From Tunturiibacter gelidiferens (GTDB taxonomy: Bacteria > Acidobacteriota > Terriglobia > Terriglobales > Acidobacteriaceae), in contig NZ_JACHEB010000006.1 in assembly GCF_014201335.1 (NCBI RefSeq), forward strand, positions 1 to 64,000: DNA of 64,000 nt. The letters run 5' to 3'. Numbering within the stretch: position 1 is the stretch's first letter; each line of letters begins with the position of its first letter. Below, one piece after another: positions 42,817-47,735 of the stretch. The notes under the pieces were generated by a model, which had not been told where the DNA came from, did not search any database, and saw only the letters and a program-made list of their open reading frames with translations. Made by a program: the position numbers and the translations under genes.

Positions 42817-44139
42817 ATGGCGAACATGAAGAATATGGTGGATCAGAGCGACTGGGGATGCGATCTTCATGGGCGGGACGCAGTGAGACGTGGAGTGACG
42901 CGGCGTGGGTTTATGAAGGGTGGGGCGCTTGCGCTGATTGGGACTTCGACGATTCCTGCGTTTTTGTCGCGGAGCGTTCTGGCCGAGGTGACGACGGCGG
43001 CGGCGAATAGGAAGAAGCTTGTGGTTCTGTTTCAACGGGGCGCGGTGGATGGGTTGAACGTCGTGGTGCCGTACAAGGAGAAGAACTACTATGCGATGCG
43101 GCCTTCGATCGCGATTCAGGAGAAGGATGTTCTGGATTTGAATGGATTTTTTGGTCTGCATCCAGCGATGACTGCGTTCAAGCCTCTGTACGAGCAAGGG
43201 CATCTTGCGATTGTGCAGGCGGCGGGATCGCCTGATACTACACGGTCGCACTTCGATGCGCAGGATTATATGGAGAGCGGGACGCCTGGGGTGAAGGCTA
43301 CCCCGGATGGATGGTTGAATCGCGCGTTGCAGACGGAGGCTTTGACGAGCAAGCCCTCGGCGTTTCGCGCGGTGGCGCTGGGGACCCAAGTGCCGAGGAC
43401 GCTGCAGGGAAAGATTCCGGCGATTGCGGTGAATAATCTGGCGGATTTCTCTGTCGCTGGAAAGGGACCGCAGACCTCGCCGATCAGCAACGCGTTTCAG
43501 GCGATGTACGACGAGAGCTCAGATGCTGTGCTGCACGGGACCGGACAGGAGACCTTTGAGGCTGTGAAGATGCTGAAGTCGGCGGATCCGTCGAGGTATC
43601 GGCCAGCGGCTGGGGTGGTTTACCCGAATACTCCGTTTGGAAATAGTTTGAAACAGGTAGCGCAGTTGATGAAGGCAAACCTCGGAGTGGAGGCTGCGTT
43701 CTCCGATATCGGCGGGTGGGACACGCATCAGAACCAGGGGAATGTGAATGGGCAGCTGGCGAATCGTCTGAAGGAGTTTTCCGAGACGATTGGTGCGTTC
43801 TGGAAGGATATGGGAGACGACGCTGAGAATGTGACGCTGGTGACGATGTCGGAGTTTGGTAGGACCGCGCGGCAGAATGGAACCGGTGGTACCGACCATG
43901 GGCATGCGAACGTGATGTTTGTGCTGGGCGGCAGGGTGAAGGGCGGCAAGGTTTATGGGAAGTGGCCCGGGCTTGCGGAGGAGCAATTGAACGAAGGAAG
44001 GGATCTGGCTGTGACGACGGACTTCCGGCGTGTGATGGGTGAGGCGGCGTACAAAACTCTTGGCACGAAGAATCTTGAGTTGGTGTTTCCGGGAGCGCAG
44101 GTTCGACCGGACGAATTTTTGAATTTTTCGCAGGTGTGA
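42817..44139 (+). CDS. DUF1501 Tat-exported protein
   Basis: The 440-residue protein carries a twin-arginine signal (VTRRGFMKGGALALIGTSTI) and the sulfatase/alkaline-phosphatase-like DUF1501 fold, with LVVLFQRGAVDGLNVVVPYK, LHPAMTAFKPLYEQGHLAIV, GGWDTHQNQG and TMSEFGRTARQNGTGGTDHG. The His and Asp residues in GGWDTHQ and GTDHGHAN are in positions suited to metal binding. It is the usual partner of the DUF1800 protein just upstream and is probably co-transcribed. The substrate is unknown. Confidence 0.9.
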   Translation: MANMKNMVDQSDWGCDLHGRDAVRRGVTRRGFMKGGALALIGTSTIPAFLSRSVLAEVTTAAANRKKLVVLFQRGAVDGLNVVVPYKEKNYYAMRPSIAIQEKDVLDLNGFFGLHPAMTAFKPLYEQGHLAIVQAAGSPDTTRSHFDAQDYMESGTPGVKATPDGWLNRALQTEALTSKPSAFRAVALGTQVPRTLQGKIPAIAVNNLADFSVAGKGPQTSPISNAFQAMYDESSDAVLHGTGQETFEAVKMLKSADPSRYRPAAGVVYPNTPFGNSLKQVAQLMKANLGVEAAFSDIGGWDTHQNQGNVNGQLANRLKEFSETIGAFWKDMGDDAENVTLVTMSEFGRTARQNGTGGTDHGHANVMFVLGGRVKGGKVYGKWPGLAEEQLNEGRDLAVTTDFRRVMGEAAYKTLGTKNLELVFPGAQVRPDEFLNFSQV

Positions 44140-44351
44140 GGGAGTGAGAGGTGGTGAATGTATCCGGCGCGTCACTCTTCTGTTTATGGAATGTAAAAAT
44201 GAACGAGATACAAAATAGTGGAAAAAAGACGGCAACTTTTCTTTAGATACTGCGTCTTATTGGGTGTACCACATAAACAGTCGGGCTTGCAGTTCCCACA
44301 GTTCCGGCTTCCAATATCCGCAACAAAAGAACTCCCCCACCACAAATGTAA

Positions 44352-44390
44352 GGCTCCCAGAACACCGGGAGCCTTCTCTCCTTTTGGACG
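44352..44390. terminator. Hairpin terminator between convergent genes
   Basis: GGCTCCC (44352-44358) and GGGAGCC (44367-44373) form a 7-bp stem followed by TTCTCTCCTTTT on the plus strand. It lies between the DUF1501 gene and the convergent doxX. The other bases of 44140-44351 hold no gene that I can support. Confidence 0.65.
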
Positions 44391-44405
44391 CTTGTCAGGT
44401 ATTGA

Positions 44406-44804
44406 TCAGGCGAATCCGATCTTGCGATCGAGGGCCATCGCTCCGGCGCCGTAAAAGAAGAGCATGATGGCCAGGACGGCGAGGGCGAGGATGTAGCCGT
44501 AGAAATCGAAGTCGTGATGGATGCCGACGGTGGCGAAGGCTACCAGCATATTTACTCCAACCAGGAACGCAATCAAGCGGGTGAATAGGCCCAGGATTAG
44601 GAAGATGCCGCCGATGAATTCGGTGTAGGCGGAGACGTATCCGAGCCAATAAGGCAGGCCGAGAATGGTGACGTAGTGAGCGTAGTGGTGCAGCGCGCTA
44701 ATTGGGTGAACCTTCTCATACCCGTAGATCGTCATGGAGACGCCGAGAATCAGACGCATAAGAAGCGCGCCGATAGGTTGCAGGCTATTAAGCCATTTGG
44801 TCAT
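44406..44804 (-). CDS. DoxX-family membrane protein
   Basis: The 132-residue protein has four membrane helices and the DoxX pattern (LMRLILGVSMTIYGYEKV, then YTEFIGGIFLILGLFTRLIA, then LALAVLAIMLFFYGAGAMAL). Members are linked to quinone-dependent redox processes or membrane redox stress in other bacteria; the role here is unknown. It is 52 bases downstream of the hydrolase-fold gene on the same strand and may be co-transcribed with it. Confidence 0.88.
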   Translation of the reverse strand: MTKWLNSLQPIGALLMRLILGVSMTIYGYEKVHPISALHHYAHYVTILGLPYWLGYVSAYTEFIGGIFLILGLFTRLIAFLVGVNMLVAFATVGIHHDFDFYGYILALAVLAIMLFFYGAGAMALDRKIGFA

Positions 44805-44856
44805 AAAAAATCCTTTTGAAAAGGGTACCGCGGAGGAGTGGAGGGCGAGGTGGATC

Positions 44857-45789
44857 TTAGCGAATGGGTGCCGCGGAAGGTACGAGTTGGGAAGCGGGTG
44901 CCGGAGGGAGATATTGGTCGAGAAAGCGGGTGAGGCTTTGGTTGTAGAGAGGGTCAGAGGAGATGGAGAGTTCCACGGTGAGTTTGGGATCGGCGGCTGT
45001 GCGATAACTTTGGTCGGCGGCAGAGGTGCGGGCGAGGAGAAGCTTTGGGGTTTTGAGGGTGGCGAGGGGCGTGGCGAGGGGGAAGTTTTCGTGGAAGAGA
45101 AGGCTTAGTGGTATGAGGCGGGAGCGGGGGTCGCGTTGGGCTGCTTTGAGGAGGTCGGCGTGGGGGGTGTCGAGGACTAAGGCGGGAATTTTAGAGTGAT
45201 CGACGGCGAGTTGAGTGGCGAGAGAGGCTCCGACGCCAGTTCCGTAGGGGATGATTTGTTGCTCGGGGATGGCGCGGGAGTTGGTGAGATACTGCCAGGC
45301 GGAATCAACGTCGCGGGTCATATTTTTCTGGCTGGGGCGGGTTGGAGCGCTTTGGCCGTAGCCGCGGTAGTCAAAGGCGAAGACGTTGAGGCCAATGTTG
45401 TGGAGGCTGGAGAGAGTGGGAATGGAGTCGGCGAGGGCGCCGTCTCCGCTGGGGAGGAAGAGGATGGTGGTGTCGGCGTAGCGGGCGCGGGGAGAGGCGG
45501 GAATCCACCATCCGGTGAGCTGAGGAGTTGCGGATTCGTCAGGGCCGAAATGGATGAGTTGGTAGGGTATGCCTGCAATGAAGGCCGGCGCGGCTGAGGT
45601 GCGGTTGGGGTGCAGGACGAGCTGCCATTGGCCTTGATAGAAAAGCAGGCAGAAGGTTAGATAGCCGCAGAAGAGAGCCACGACGATGGTGATGGCGATC
45701 GCTTTCACGAGCCAGAGCGGGCTGACGACTTCGGGTGGAGCATTGGTTGGCGGGGTGTGCCTGCTTGGCTTCGGAGTGGGGCGGGGCAT
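44857..45789 (-). CDS. Membrane-anchored alpha/beta-hydrolase-fold protein lacking the Ser nucleophile
   Basis: The 310-residue protein has one N-terminal membrane helix (AIAITIVVALFCGYLTFCLL) and an alpha/beta-hydrolase domain like the BEM46/ABHD13 group (LVLHPNR, GWWIPASP, FLPSGDG and FAFDYRGYGQS). The nucleophile elbow should read GxSxG but reads YGTGVGASLA, with Gly in place of Ser. The late catalytic His is also not visible (usual GGHxD; here ISSDPLYNQSLTRFLD). It is therefore probably not an ordinary hydrolase. A neighbouring Ser in GAS might substitute, but that is speculative. Confidence 0.82.
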   Translation of the reverse strand: MPRPTPKPSRHTPPTNAPPEVVSPLWLVKAIAITIVVALFCGYLTFCLLFYQGQWQLVLHPNRTSAAPAFIAGIPYQLIHFGPDESATPQLTGWWIPASPRARYADTTILFLPSGDGALADSIPTLSSLHNIGLNVFAFDYRGYGQSAPTRPSQKNMTRDVDSAWQYLTNSRAIPEQQIIPYGTGVGASLATQLAVDHSKIPALVLDTPHADLLKAAQRDPRSRLIPLSLLFHENFPLATPLATLKTPKLLLARTSAADQSYRTAADPKLTVELSISSDPLYNQSLTRFLDQYLPPAPASQLVPSAAPIR

Positions 45790-45887: not shown

Positions 45888-46199
45888 GTGGCGCAGTGGG
45901 TGAGGCTATGTGGACTGGCGGAGGCTCCGCCGGTGGGGCGAGTGATGGAGGCAGAGGTAGAGGGTGTCGCGATTTGCCTGGCGAATTTGAATGGGGAGTT
46001 GTCGGCGCTGGATAACGTGTGTCCGCATCGGCAGGGGCCGCTGGGACAGGGTTGGATTGAGGGTGAGGCGGTGGTTTGTCCGTGGCATTCTTGGGCGTTC
46101 AATGTGAAGACGGGGCTGGCCGAGTTTCCGGCGCATGAACGAGTGGAGCTGTTTCCGCTGCGGCTGGAGGGTGGGGATGTTCTAGTGGATATCGAATAG
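45888..46199 (+). CDS. Rieske [2Fe-2S] protein (NirD/ferredoxin type)
   Basis: The 103-residue protein starts at a GTG (45888) seven bases after GGAGG. Both Rieske cluster motifs are present: CPHRQG and CPWHSWAF, each with Cys and His ligands. It lacks a membrane helix or Tat signal, so it is a soluble electron carrier or a small subunit like NirD. No reductase or oxygenase partner is adjacent. Length is typical for Rieske ferredoxins. Confidence 0.92.
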   Translation: MAQWVRLCGLAEAPPVGRVMEAEVEGVAICLANLNGELSALDNVCPHRQGPLGQGWIEGEAVVCPWHSWAFNVKTGLAEFPAHERVELFPLRLEGGDVLVDIE

Positions 46200-46337
46200 C
46201 GGCCCGTTTGGGGAATCAAGGTCGGAACATCGACTTGATTGAGGAAAACTTTGTATGTCAGGCGAGAGAGAACGGGTTACGCTGCCTTTTAGAGACACGC
46301 CATTCGAAAGGGTGGCTCATCGAGAGGGAGTTCTTCC

Positions 46338-46460
46338 ATGAAGTTGCGTTCGTTGTTTCTTGCTGTCGTTGCTTTTGTCGTTCTTGCCGGTGCTGTAGTA
46401 CCTGCTAACGCTTCCACCTATCATCATCACCGTCATCACCATCATCATCACCACAGCTAG
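46338..46460 (+). CDS. Secreted polyhistidine peptide, 40 aa
   Basis: A short open frame with AGGGAG seven bases before its ATG encodes a signal peptide (MKLRSLFLAVVAFVVLAGAV, ending VPANA) followed by STYHHHRHHHHHHHS and TAG. After cleavage at ANA/STY the mature peptide would be 15 residues with 10 histidines. A good intrinsic terminator begins 22 bases after the stop. Signal sequence, ribosome site and terminator together make a real gene likely in spite of the length. Histidine-rich peptides bind Ni, Zn, Cu or Co, so periplasmic metal buffering or sensing is the simplest guess; it is inference only. No metal transporter is next to it. Confidence 0.75.
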   Translation: MKLRSLFLAVVAFVVLAGAVVPANASTYHHHRHHHHHHHS

Positions 46461-46482
46461 AGTTTGCATAGAATGTGAAAGA

Positions 46483-46508
46483 GCTCGGCCATTGTGCCGG
46501 GCTTTTTT
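46483..46508 (+). terminator. Terminator after the polyhistidine gene
   Basis: GCTCGGC (46483-46489), a 6-base loop and GCCGGGC (46496-46502) are followed directly by six T. It separates the peptide gene from carA. Confidence 0.8.
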
Positions 46509-46595
46509 GCGTGCGAAGTGATTTGCCCTGCGATGAGCGCTTTGCACTGTAAATACTGATAGAATCTATTAAATCCACTCCAGACAGGAGAGGCA

Positions 46596-47735
46596 ATGCA
46601 GGCAATACTGGCGCTAGAAGATGGGCGCATTTTTCGGGGTAAGAGTTTTGGCGCGCGAGTGGAACGCTCGGGCGAGGTGGTCTTCAATACATCACTAACC
46701 GGCTATCAGGAGATCTTCACCGATCCCTCTTATGCGGGTCAGATCGTGGTTTTGACAAATCCACATATTGGGAACTATGGGACGACGCCTAGCGATGCGG
46801 AGTCGAAGAAGCCGTTTATTGAAGGCCTGGTGACGCGTGAGTTTTCGCCGATGAGCTCGAACTGGCGTTCGACGCAGGTGGCGGATGAGTATCTGGAGCG
46901 CTATGGGGTTCCGGTGATTGCTGAGATTGATACGCGAGCTGTGGTGCGGCATCTTCGCGCCAATGGTGTGATGCGCGGGGTGATCGCGTCGGGCGAGAAT
47001 CTTGACGTGGATGCGCTGGTGGCGAAGGCGCGGTCGATCAAGAAGATGGAAGGCACCGACCTTGCGAGTATTGTGAGCACGAAGGTTGCTTATGAGTGGG
47101 ACGCGAATGAGCCGAAGAATCAGACGGGCGATACGCTGCTGACGCCTGCGGTTGAGGGCGATGCGAAGCAGATGCACGTGGTCGCGTATGACTTCGGGAT
47201 CAAGGAAAATATTCTTCGGATGCTGACGAGAGAGAACTGCCGCGTGACGGTGGTTCCGGCGAAGACCTCGGCTGCGGATGTGATGGCGATGGAGCCGGAT
47301 GGAGTGTTCTTTTCAAATGGACCGGGGGATCCGGAGCCGTTGGAGTATGCGCAGGAGAATATTCGCGAGTTGCAGGGAAAGACGCCGATGTTCGGGATTT
47401 GCCTGGGGCATCAGCTGTTCGGACTGGCGCTGGGCGGGAAGACTTATAAGTTGAAGTTCGGTCACCACGGCGGAAATCACCCGATCATGAATCATCAGAC
47501 GGGTAAGGTTGAGATCACCGCGCAGAATCATAACTTCAATGTGGATCCTGATTCGCTTCCGGATGACGTTGAGAAGACGCATACGAACTTGAATGATCAG
47601 ACGCTGGCAGGTTTGAAGCACAAGACCGACCCGATGTTCAGTGTGCAATATCACCCGGAGGCGAGTCCCGGCCCGCATGACTCGCATTATCTCTTCAAGG
47701 ATTTTCGGAAGATGATGGAAGAGTTCAAAAAATAG
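46596..47735 (+). CDS. carA: Carbamoyl-phosphate synthase small subunit
   Basis: The 379-residue glutaminase subunit delivers ammonia to CarB for arginine and pyrimidine synthesis. The N-terminal domain has ALEDGRIFRGKSFGA and FNTSLTGYQEIFTDPSYAGQ. The class-I amidotransferase domain has the nucleophile in FGICLGHQLFGLALGGKT and the His-Glu pair in VQYHPEASPGPHD. Length is normal. It is followed by carB after 73 bases, with a terminator-like hairpin in between. GGAGAG lies before the ATG. Confidence 0.97.
   Translation: MQAILALEDGRIFRGKSFGARVERSGEVVFNTSLTGYQEIFTDPSYAGQIVVLTNPHIGNYGTTPSDAESKKPFIEGLVTREFSPMSSNWRSTQVADEYLERYGVPVIAEIDTRAVVRHLRANGVMRGVIASGENLDVDALVAKARSIKKMEGTDLASIVSTKVAYEWDANEPKNQTGDTLLTPAVEGDAKQMHVVAYDFGIKENILRMLTRENCRVTVVPAKTSAADVMAMEPDGVFFSNGPGDPEPLEYAQENIRELQGKTPMFGICLGHQLFGLALGGKTYKLKFGHHGGNHPIMNHQTGKVEITAQNHNFNVDPDSLPDDVEKTHTNLNDQTLAGLKHKTDPMFSVQYHPEASPGPHDSHYLFKDFRKMMEEFKK

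Follow-up and report, generated by a model that had tools for sequence, protein, structure and literature searches.

A family of short His/Arg-rich peptides with predicted signal peptides encoded upstream of carA in Acidobacteriaceae

We describe a gene of 40 codons, situated between genes for a small Rieske protein and the carbamoyl-phosphate synthase small chain (carA) in the acidobacterium Tunturiibacter gelidiferens, which typifies a real family of peptides combining a predicted signal peptide with a short tail dominated by histidine and arginine. From its sequence features we infer that the product may be a Sec-exported His/Arg peptide that acts as a periplasmic metal ligand, i.e., a small buffer or scavenger and not a dedicated store for a nickel enzyme, a reading to which we assign a probability of about 0.5. 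The features that bear on it are coding selection, the signal anatomy, a dedicated terminator, a promoter-like box, a conserved locus and the existence of a two-cysteine version at that same locus. ORFs of about 40 codons are of a size often omitted by annotation. The tested members matched no Pfam or NCBIfam model above its cut-off, and a search of titles and the starts of abstracts in the open-licence PubMed Central literature recovered no paper on this family.

The ORF encodes MKLRSLFLAVVAFVVLAGAVVPANA followed by STYHHHRHHHHHHHS, and its coordinates, frame and translation are exact (Table 1). When the window, that is, the whole 64-kb stretch of DNA analyzed, was scanned for short frames in which a hydrophobic leader is combined with six or more His among the last 18 residues, this ORF was the sole result, and 100 first-order Markov resamples of the same sequence gave no such frame (0/100). 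Among six close relatives, the differences summed over their 15 (non-independent) pairs are synonymous in 98 of 106 cases in the signal codons and in 60 of 78 in the tail codons, with dN ranging from 0 to 0.03 in the signal and from 0 to 0.10 in the tail. The 18 non-synonymous tail differences are confined to residues 27, 28 and 31, and His-to-Arg and Tyr-to-Arg are among the tail substitutions seen in close relatives. Moreover, CAT and CAC are swapped for each other within the His run, which argues against both repeat slippage and a chance ORF. By the codon comparison, selection at the amino-acid level acts on signal and tail alike among these six relatives. The first-pass annotation, made from the letters of the window, had called a 40-codon gene with a ribosome site and had looked to conservation of the signal and His tail through synonymous change for its support; the exact frame, the Shine-Dalgarno-like GAGAGGGAG, the empty resamples and the synonymous excess bear it out on both points.

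The N-terminal part displays the marks of Sec export and signal peptidase I processing, namely a basic N-terminus, a hydrophobic core and an A-x-A motif, from which the putative signal peptide was assigned. In an alignment of 34 sequences drawn from the 47 loci of the family (near copies omitted), the columns conserved in at least 90% of members are Met1, Lys2, Arg4, Pro22, Ala23 and four His columns. The window peptide has 15 residues beyond its A-N-A motif, 10 of them His, and this tail is expected to be unfolded. Across 42 distinct sequences from the 47 loci, three rows having been dropped beforehand as not representing the family at this locus, His makes up 53% and Arg 20% of the predicted mature residues, together 73%, and acidic residues account for 4/662 (0.6%); the cleavage rule, applied automatically, places the cut too early in some members, which inflates A, P and V and lowers the His share. 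The earlier description of the product as a natural polyhistidine tag thus suits the strain group of the window, with its 10 His in 15 residues, and has to give way for the family at large to a His/Arg tail.

Signals on both sides of the ORF are shared across the family. As descriptive counts of motifs that were picked after the alignment had been viewed, TANGCT occurs within 150 nt upstream at 32 of the 47 loci (vs. 114/940 shuffles), lying 55–62 nt before the ATG at 26; TGAGGAAA occurs upstream at 18/47 (vs. 4/940 shuffles), and the two appear together at a set spacing at 16/47 (vs. 0/940). In carA regions that lack the peptide gene, TGAGGAAA is present in 1/14 and the TGAGGAAA-TANGCT pair in 0/14, and upstream of 15 ORFs from the genus g28 (see below) TGAGGAAA is seen in 0/15 and the TANGCT box in 1/15. 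A general sigma-70 scan called no promoter at the peptide gene. We also considered and set aside a regulon marked by the upstream element, its core GAGGAAAACTTT being found, by exact matching, once in the genome. Downstream, a GC-rich hairpin begins 18 nt past the end of the ORF and is followed by a T run, which would place the transcript end at about 46508. With the search limited to 110 nt past the stop, terminators follow 43 of the 47 loci (three of which begin 56–72 nt away and are less typical), as against 38 of 440 single-letter shuffles, for which these 47 segments and 41 others were used. Hence, the earlier proposal of a signal peptide and an own terminator finds its counterpart across the family in the retained A-x-A anatomy and these hairpins. 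A consensus terminator scanner does not list the window hairpin, perhaps counting the T run into the stem; the tail codons and hairpin of the window fold together with a z of −1.65 (12/200 shuffles equally stable), a moderate excess only. Given its shortness and the promoter-like box and terminator that belong to it, the unit would likewise be compatible with another kind of action, in which the peptide serves as a signal or as the ligand of some partner, or a small RNA is the active molecule. We judge this improbable as a whole, and against its RNA variant stand the selection on amino acids amid much synonymous change, the poor alignment of the DNA upstream of the gene among the same relatives and the lack of any Rfam family at its gathering score.

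Table 1. Features of the peptide gene and its immediate surroundings in the window
Feature	Coordinates	Strand	Remarks
Small Rieske [2Fe-2S] protein	45888..46199	+	Upstream neighbor
Upstream element TGAGGAAAACTTT	46240..46252	+	12-base core GAGGAAAACTTT; shared form TGAGGAAA
-10-like box TACGCT (TANGCT)	46278..46283	+	60 nt before ATG
Shine-Dalgarno-like GAGAGGGAG	46322..46330	+	7 nt before ATG; purine-rich sites in many relatives
Small His-rich peptide gene	46338..46460	+	40 codons plus stop; tblastn relatives, codon comparison
Predicted signal peptide MKLRSLFLAVVAFVVLAGAVVPANA, A-x-A motif	46338..46412	+	From anatomy; Ala25 invariant in 34/34 aligned members
Predicted mature peptide STYHHHRHHHHHHHS	46413..46457	+	Cleavage predicted from motif
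Intrinsic terminator of peptide gene	46479..46508	+	Hairpin 46479-46506, then T run
Promoter-like motif TAGAATCTATT before carA	46560..46570	+	Past the terminator
carA, carbamoyl-phosphate synthase small chain	46596..47735	+	Downstream neighbor

The gene neighborhood recurs across the family: carA is near 44 of the 47 loci, starting 128–205 nt after the peptide stop in 41 of these, and a Rieske gene is upstream in 40/47, counts in which a missing neighbor is not a proven absence, given that the flanks of many loci extend for only 1.5 kb. One second copy lies without carA or Rieske within 4 kb, and neither gene is an obligatory neighbor. The neighbors at 42817–45789 of the window code for a DUF1501 protein, a DoxX protein and an alpha/beta hydrolase. 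In the hisL leader, which controls the his operon, a stretch of His codons precedes a terminator. Its arrangement is echoed here by a His codon run that directly precedes the terminator and by the frequent presence of carA at short range downstream, such that the His/Arg codons and the terminator could be imagined to attenuate carA. We tried such a leader as the main reading and rejected it as very improbable. A strict promoter-like motif of its own precedes carA at 35/47 loci, lying past a terminator in 35/35, and 12 of 14 peptide-less genomes have it as well; the segment reaching from the tail codons up to the 5′ arm of the terminator folds no more stably than mononucleotide shuffles, with a mean z of 0.17 and two values below −2 over 39 of the 47 loci (four without a terminator and four without a recognizable arm being omitted). 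The placement of the carA motif beyond the terminator, its occurrence in peptide-less genomes and the missing antiterminator signal together argue against a hisL-like leader. Unlike in hisL, the downstream gene is carA and no his biosynthesis genes follow, the signal peptide is conserved and one copy has no carA nearby. The Rfam matches are all sub-threshold; among them is Thr_leader, which scores 19.8 bits where its gathering score is 55. Separately, the segment 46560–46595 before carA (TAGAATCTATTAAATCCACTCC...) is strongly conserved in the genus, whether or not the peptide gene is present.

Within the genus of the window genome, the peptide gene is present in 45 of 62 genomes by tblastn at E≤2e-4 (49/62 at E≤1, the four weak matches not being counted). 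The 47 loci include a second copy in one genome and a tandem pair in another, and seven of them belong to relatives named Edaphobacter lichenicola, Edaphobacter sp., Granulicella sp. and Acidobacteriaceae bacterium KBS 89. At carA, the peptide gene is duplicated in tandem once in this genus and once in g28. A credible match is missing from 17/62 genomes. In 14 of these 17 the carA region was found, and the 1.5 kb upstream of carA, screened for short His-tailed ORFs, contained none; at five of these peptide-less loci the Rieske gene is still present 143–157 nt before carA. On a quick tree of carA proteins, many of whose inner branches are weak (28/65 drawn open), presence and absence in the genus amount to four changes, with 11 of the 14 absences grouped in a single clade (SH-aLRT 98) that lies within the carriers. 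Since these 11 absences form one clade inside carriers, loss is preferred over late gain, and the clade reads as one probable loss. Absence from close relatives, which the first-pass annotation had named as a sign against the gene, does therefore occur, and most of the absences that could be read at the carA locus take the form of this nested clade. Beyond the genus, every match at E≤1e-12 in a tally over 373 genomes of the family falls within the window genus; the corresponding figure at E≤0.01, 171/373, was left unused as a count, since many of these matches are to signal peptides of long frames. Matches outside the family among 347 genomes of the phylum, at E≤0.001, occur in eight genomes, all in frames of at least 222 codons, and do not represent this peptide. 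Plasmid-borne spread was entertained and dropped: neither the window peptide nor one two-Cys peptide had a plasmid match by BLAST with the low-complexity filter on, a weak test.

Other exported-type His-rich ORFs occur in related genomes. A screen beside tpiA in the window genus matched 52 genomes, of which 30 loci were read; seven ORFs passed, one was dropped as unconvincing, and the remaining 6/30 loci, the window genome not among them, code for a His/Arg/Tyr-rich second peptide with a signal followed by a tail such as AQVVVRVGPHHRHHRHH... In group g71, with neighbors named by eye, three loci bear His-rich signal-peptide ORFs between lepB-like and tpiA-like genes, and at three more, where the neighborhood is partly visible, a His-rich ORF lies beside one gene of the lepB/tpiA-like cluster. 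Likewise, by-eye naming places short His/Lys signal-peptide ORFs next to an opposite-strand mtnA-like gene at four loci of group g69 and poly-His signal-peptide ORFs next to an opposite-strand TldD/PmbA-like gene at two loci of group g70. A further His-tailed ORF, matched at E 3.8e-9 in one g21 genome, does not lie near carA.

In the genus g28, the hydrolase-Rieske-carA locus harbors a distinct version of the peptide. Loci were fetched from 16 genomes, in two of which the matches lie elsewhere; 14/16 yield 15 ORFs at this locus, with a signal and a tail like QHRHRHCWYSHHHRHCRW, and at the 14 loci carA is downstream in 13, the Rieske gene upstream in 12 and the hydrolase present in all 14. These ORFs were picked by locus and not by their cysteines, and in 15/15 the predicted mature part contains precisely two Cys, with the signal and the His/Arg make-up kept. 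Both Cys lie within HR[HV]C in 13/15; one of the other two has HKHC, and the second DRHC and RRHC. The shared locus and anatomy make it likely that the His/Arg and two-Cys forms descended from one gene, although the tails are too short for proof. The His/Cys spacing in the g28 peptides would suit a metal ligand, and the two Cys could equally form a disulfide. Two further two-Cys His-rich g28 peptides occur at sites without carA or Rieske nearby. The closest named model is NF040554 (mini_HHHH, "HHHH-motif protein"; NCBIfam, 45 positions), which likewise describes a short protein with a His-rich tail, and for whose name no paper was found in the open-licence PubMed Central literature. The matches of eight two-Cys g28 peptides cover almost all of the model (six with E-values of 4e-9 to 1e-4, two at 1.7e-8 and 0.005). 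The g28 versions score 17 to 36.7 bits, below its 40-bit cut-off, which is passed in 0/373 genomes of the family and 0/396 drawn from the phylum. For the window peptide no match was listed at E≤10, a setting in which the HMMER filters drop most weak matches, and three other tested members gave none at E≤0.01; at 40 bits, neither the window peptide nor the tested g28 versions belong to NF040554.

A signal peptide joined to a His-dominated tail points to metal coordination in the periplasm. We propose that an independent transcription unit would yield a precursor of about 40 residues, whose Sec signal peptide would be cut at A-x-A to release a His/Arg peptide of roughly 12–19 residues into the periplasm; its His side chains would loosely bind soft divalent metals such as Zn, Cu and perhaps Co or Ni, and the released peptide would act as a small metal buffer or scavenger. 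Export, cleavage, metal binding, the identity of the metal and the physiological role are all predictions from sequence. The 20% Arg and 0.6% acidic residues of the tail speak against such a role, being odd for a cation buffer, and no metal gene occurs among the immediate neighbors (Rieske, alpha/beta hydrolase, carA). We rejected storage of nickel for urease or hydrogenase as a general role: urease is found in 0/52 genomes of the genus, and matches to PF00374 ([NiFe]-hydrogenase), seen in 13/38 carriers and 3/14 non-carriers, are full length in 3/38 and 1/14. In the window genome itself, PF00374 is matched in part (model positions 152–508, 148 bits). Nickel-enzyme storage or delivery is unlikely, and carriage of the peptide gene does not track such enzymes. 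A link to Cu/Zn-SOD proved uninformative, the enzyme being present in 51/52 genomes. An ATCUN Cu/Ni site, which requires His at position 3, was discarded as well; 18/42 members have this residue under the cleavage rule that cuts some too early, with no clear enrichment over a His content of 53%.

The serious rival to the metal reading is a polycation switched by pH. Arg is charged near neutral pH and His would become so below about pH 6, such that the peptide might bind envelope polyanions or, in the manner of histatins, neighboring cells, thereby aiding a bacterium of acid soils in envelope stability, pH buffering or competition. The tail make-up of 73% His plus Arg with hardly any acidic residues and the His-to-Arg and Tyr-to-Arg changes among close relatives favor this idea, and organisms of this kind inhabit acid soils; given such a habitat and tail, the rival stays serious, even if we hold it to be unlikely on balance. 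Sec export by itself stops in the periplasm, no immunity or dedicated export gene is found among the immediate neighbors, and charge alone leaves the two Cys of 15/15 g28 ORFs unexplained. Histatins are host peptides, unlike the present family. Antimicrobial peptides that are rich in His and act in a pH-dependent manner have been described as a class (PMC5198042), and histatin-type members are likewise short, His-rich and cationic.

Turning again to the metal-ligand reading, two known systems come close. Hpn and Hpn-2 of Helicobacter pylori are small, His-rich and metal-binding, and PMC4671568 has them handling nickel in the cytoplasm and feeding urease. The window peptide differs from them in having a predicted signal peptide, and in its genus the enzymes that a store of that type would serve are mostly not found (urease in 0/52 genomes, a full-length hydrogenase match in 3/38 carriers). 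SilE, according to PMC2365173, is a periplasmic metal-binding protein with ten His in 123 residues that belongs to a metal-resistance determinant. Like SilE and PcoE, the window peptide would be periplasmic and metal-binding; unlike SilE, it has about 15 residues and no metal-resistance genes among its immediate neighbors.

These observations indicate that a gene with no more than some 40 codons can be under selection and code for a peptide of the exported type, here in a group of soil bacteria. The peptide is cheap to synthesize, which makes metal binding and pH response both readily testable, and the His/Arg and His/Arg/two-Cys forms at one locus provide natural comparison pairs. More speculatively, and as a proposal that we regard as doubtful at this point, several micro-peptide families of Acidobacteriaceae, at carA, tpiA and other loci, might be disposable, unfolded, pH-gated periplasmic metal ligands that bind near neutral pH and release their metal on acidification. 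If so, these bacteria would possess a means of metal buffering without a folded protein.
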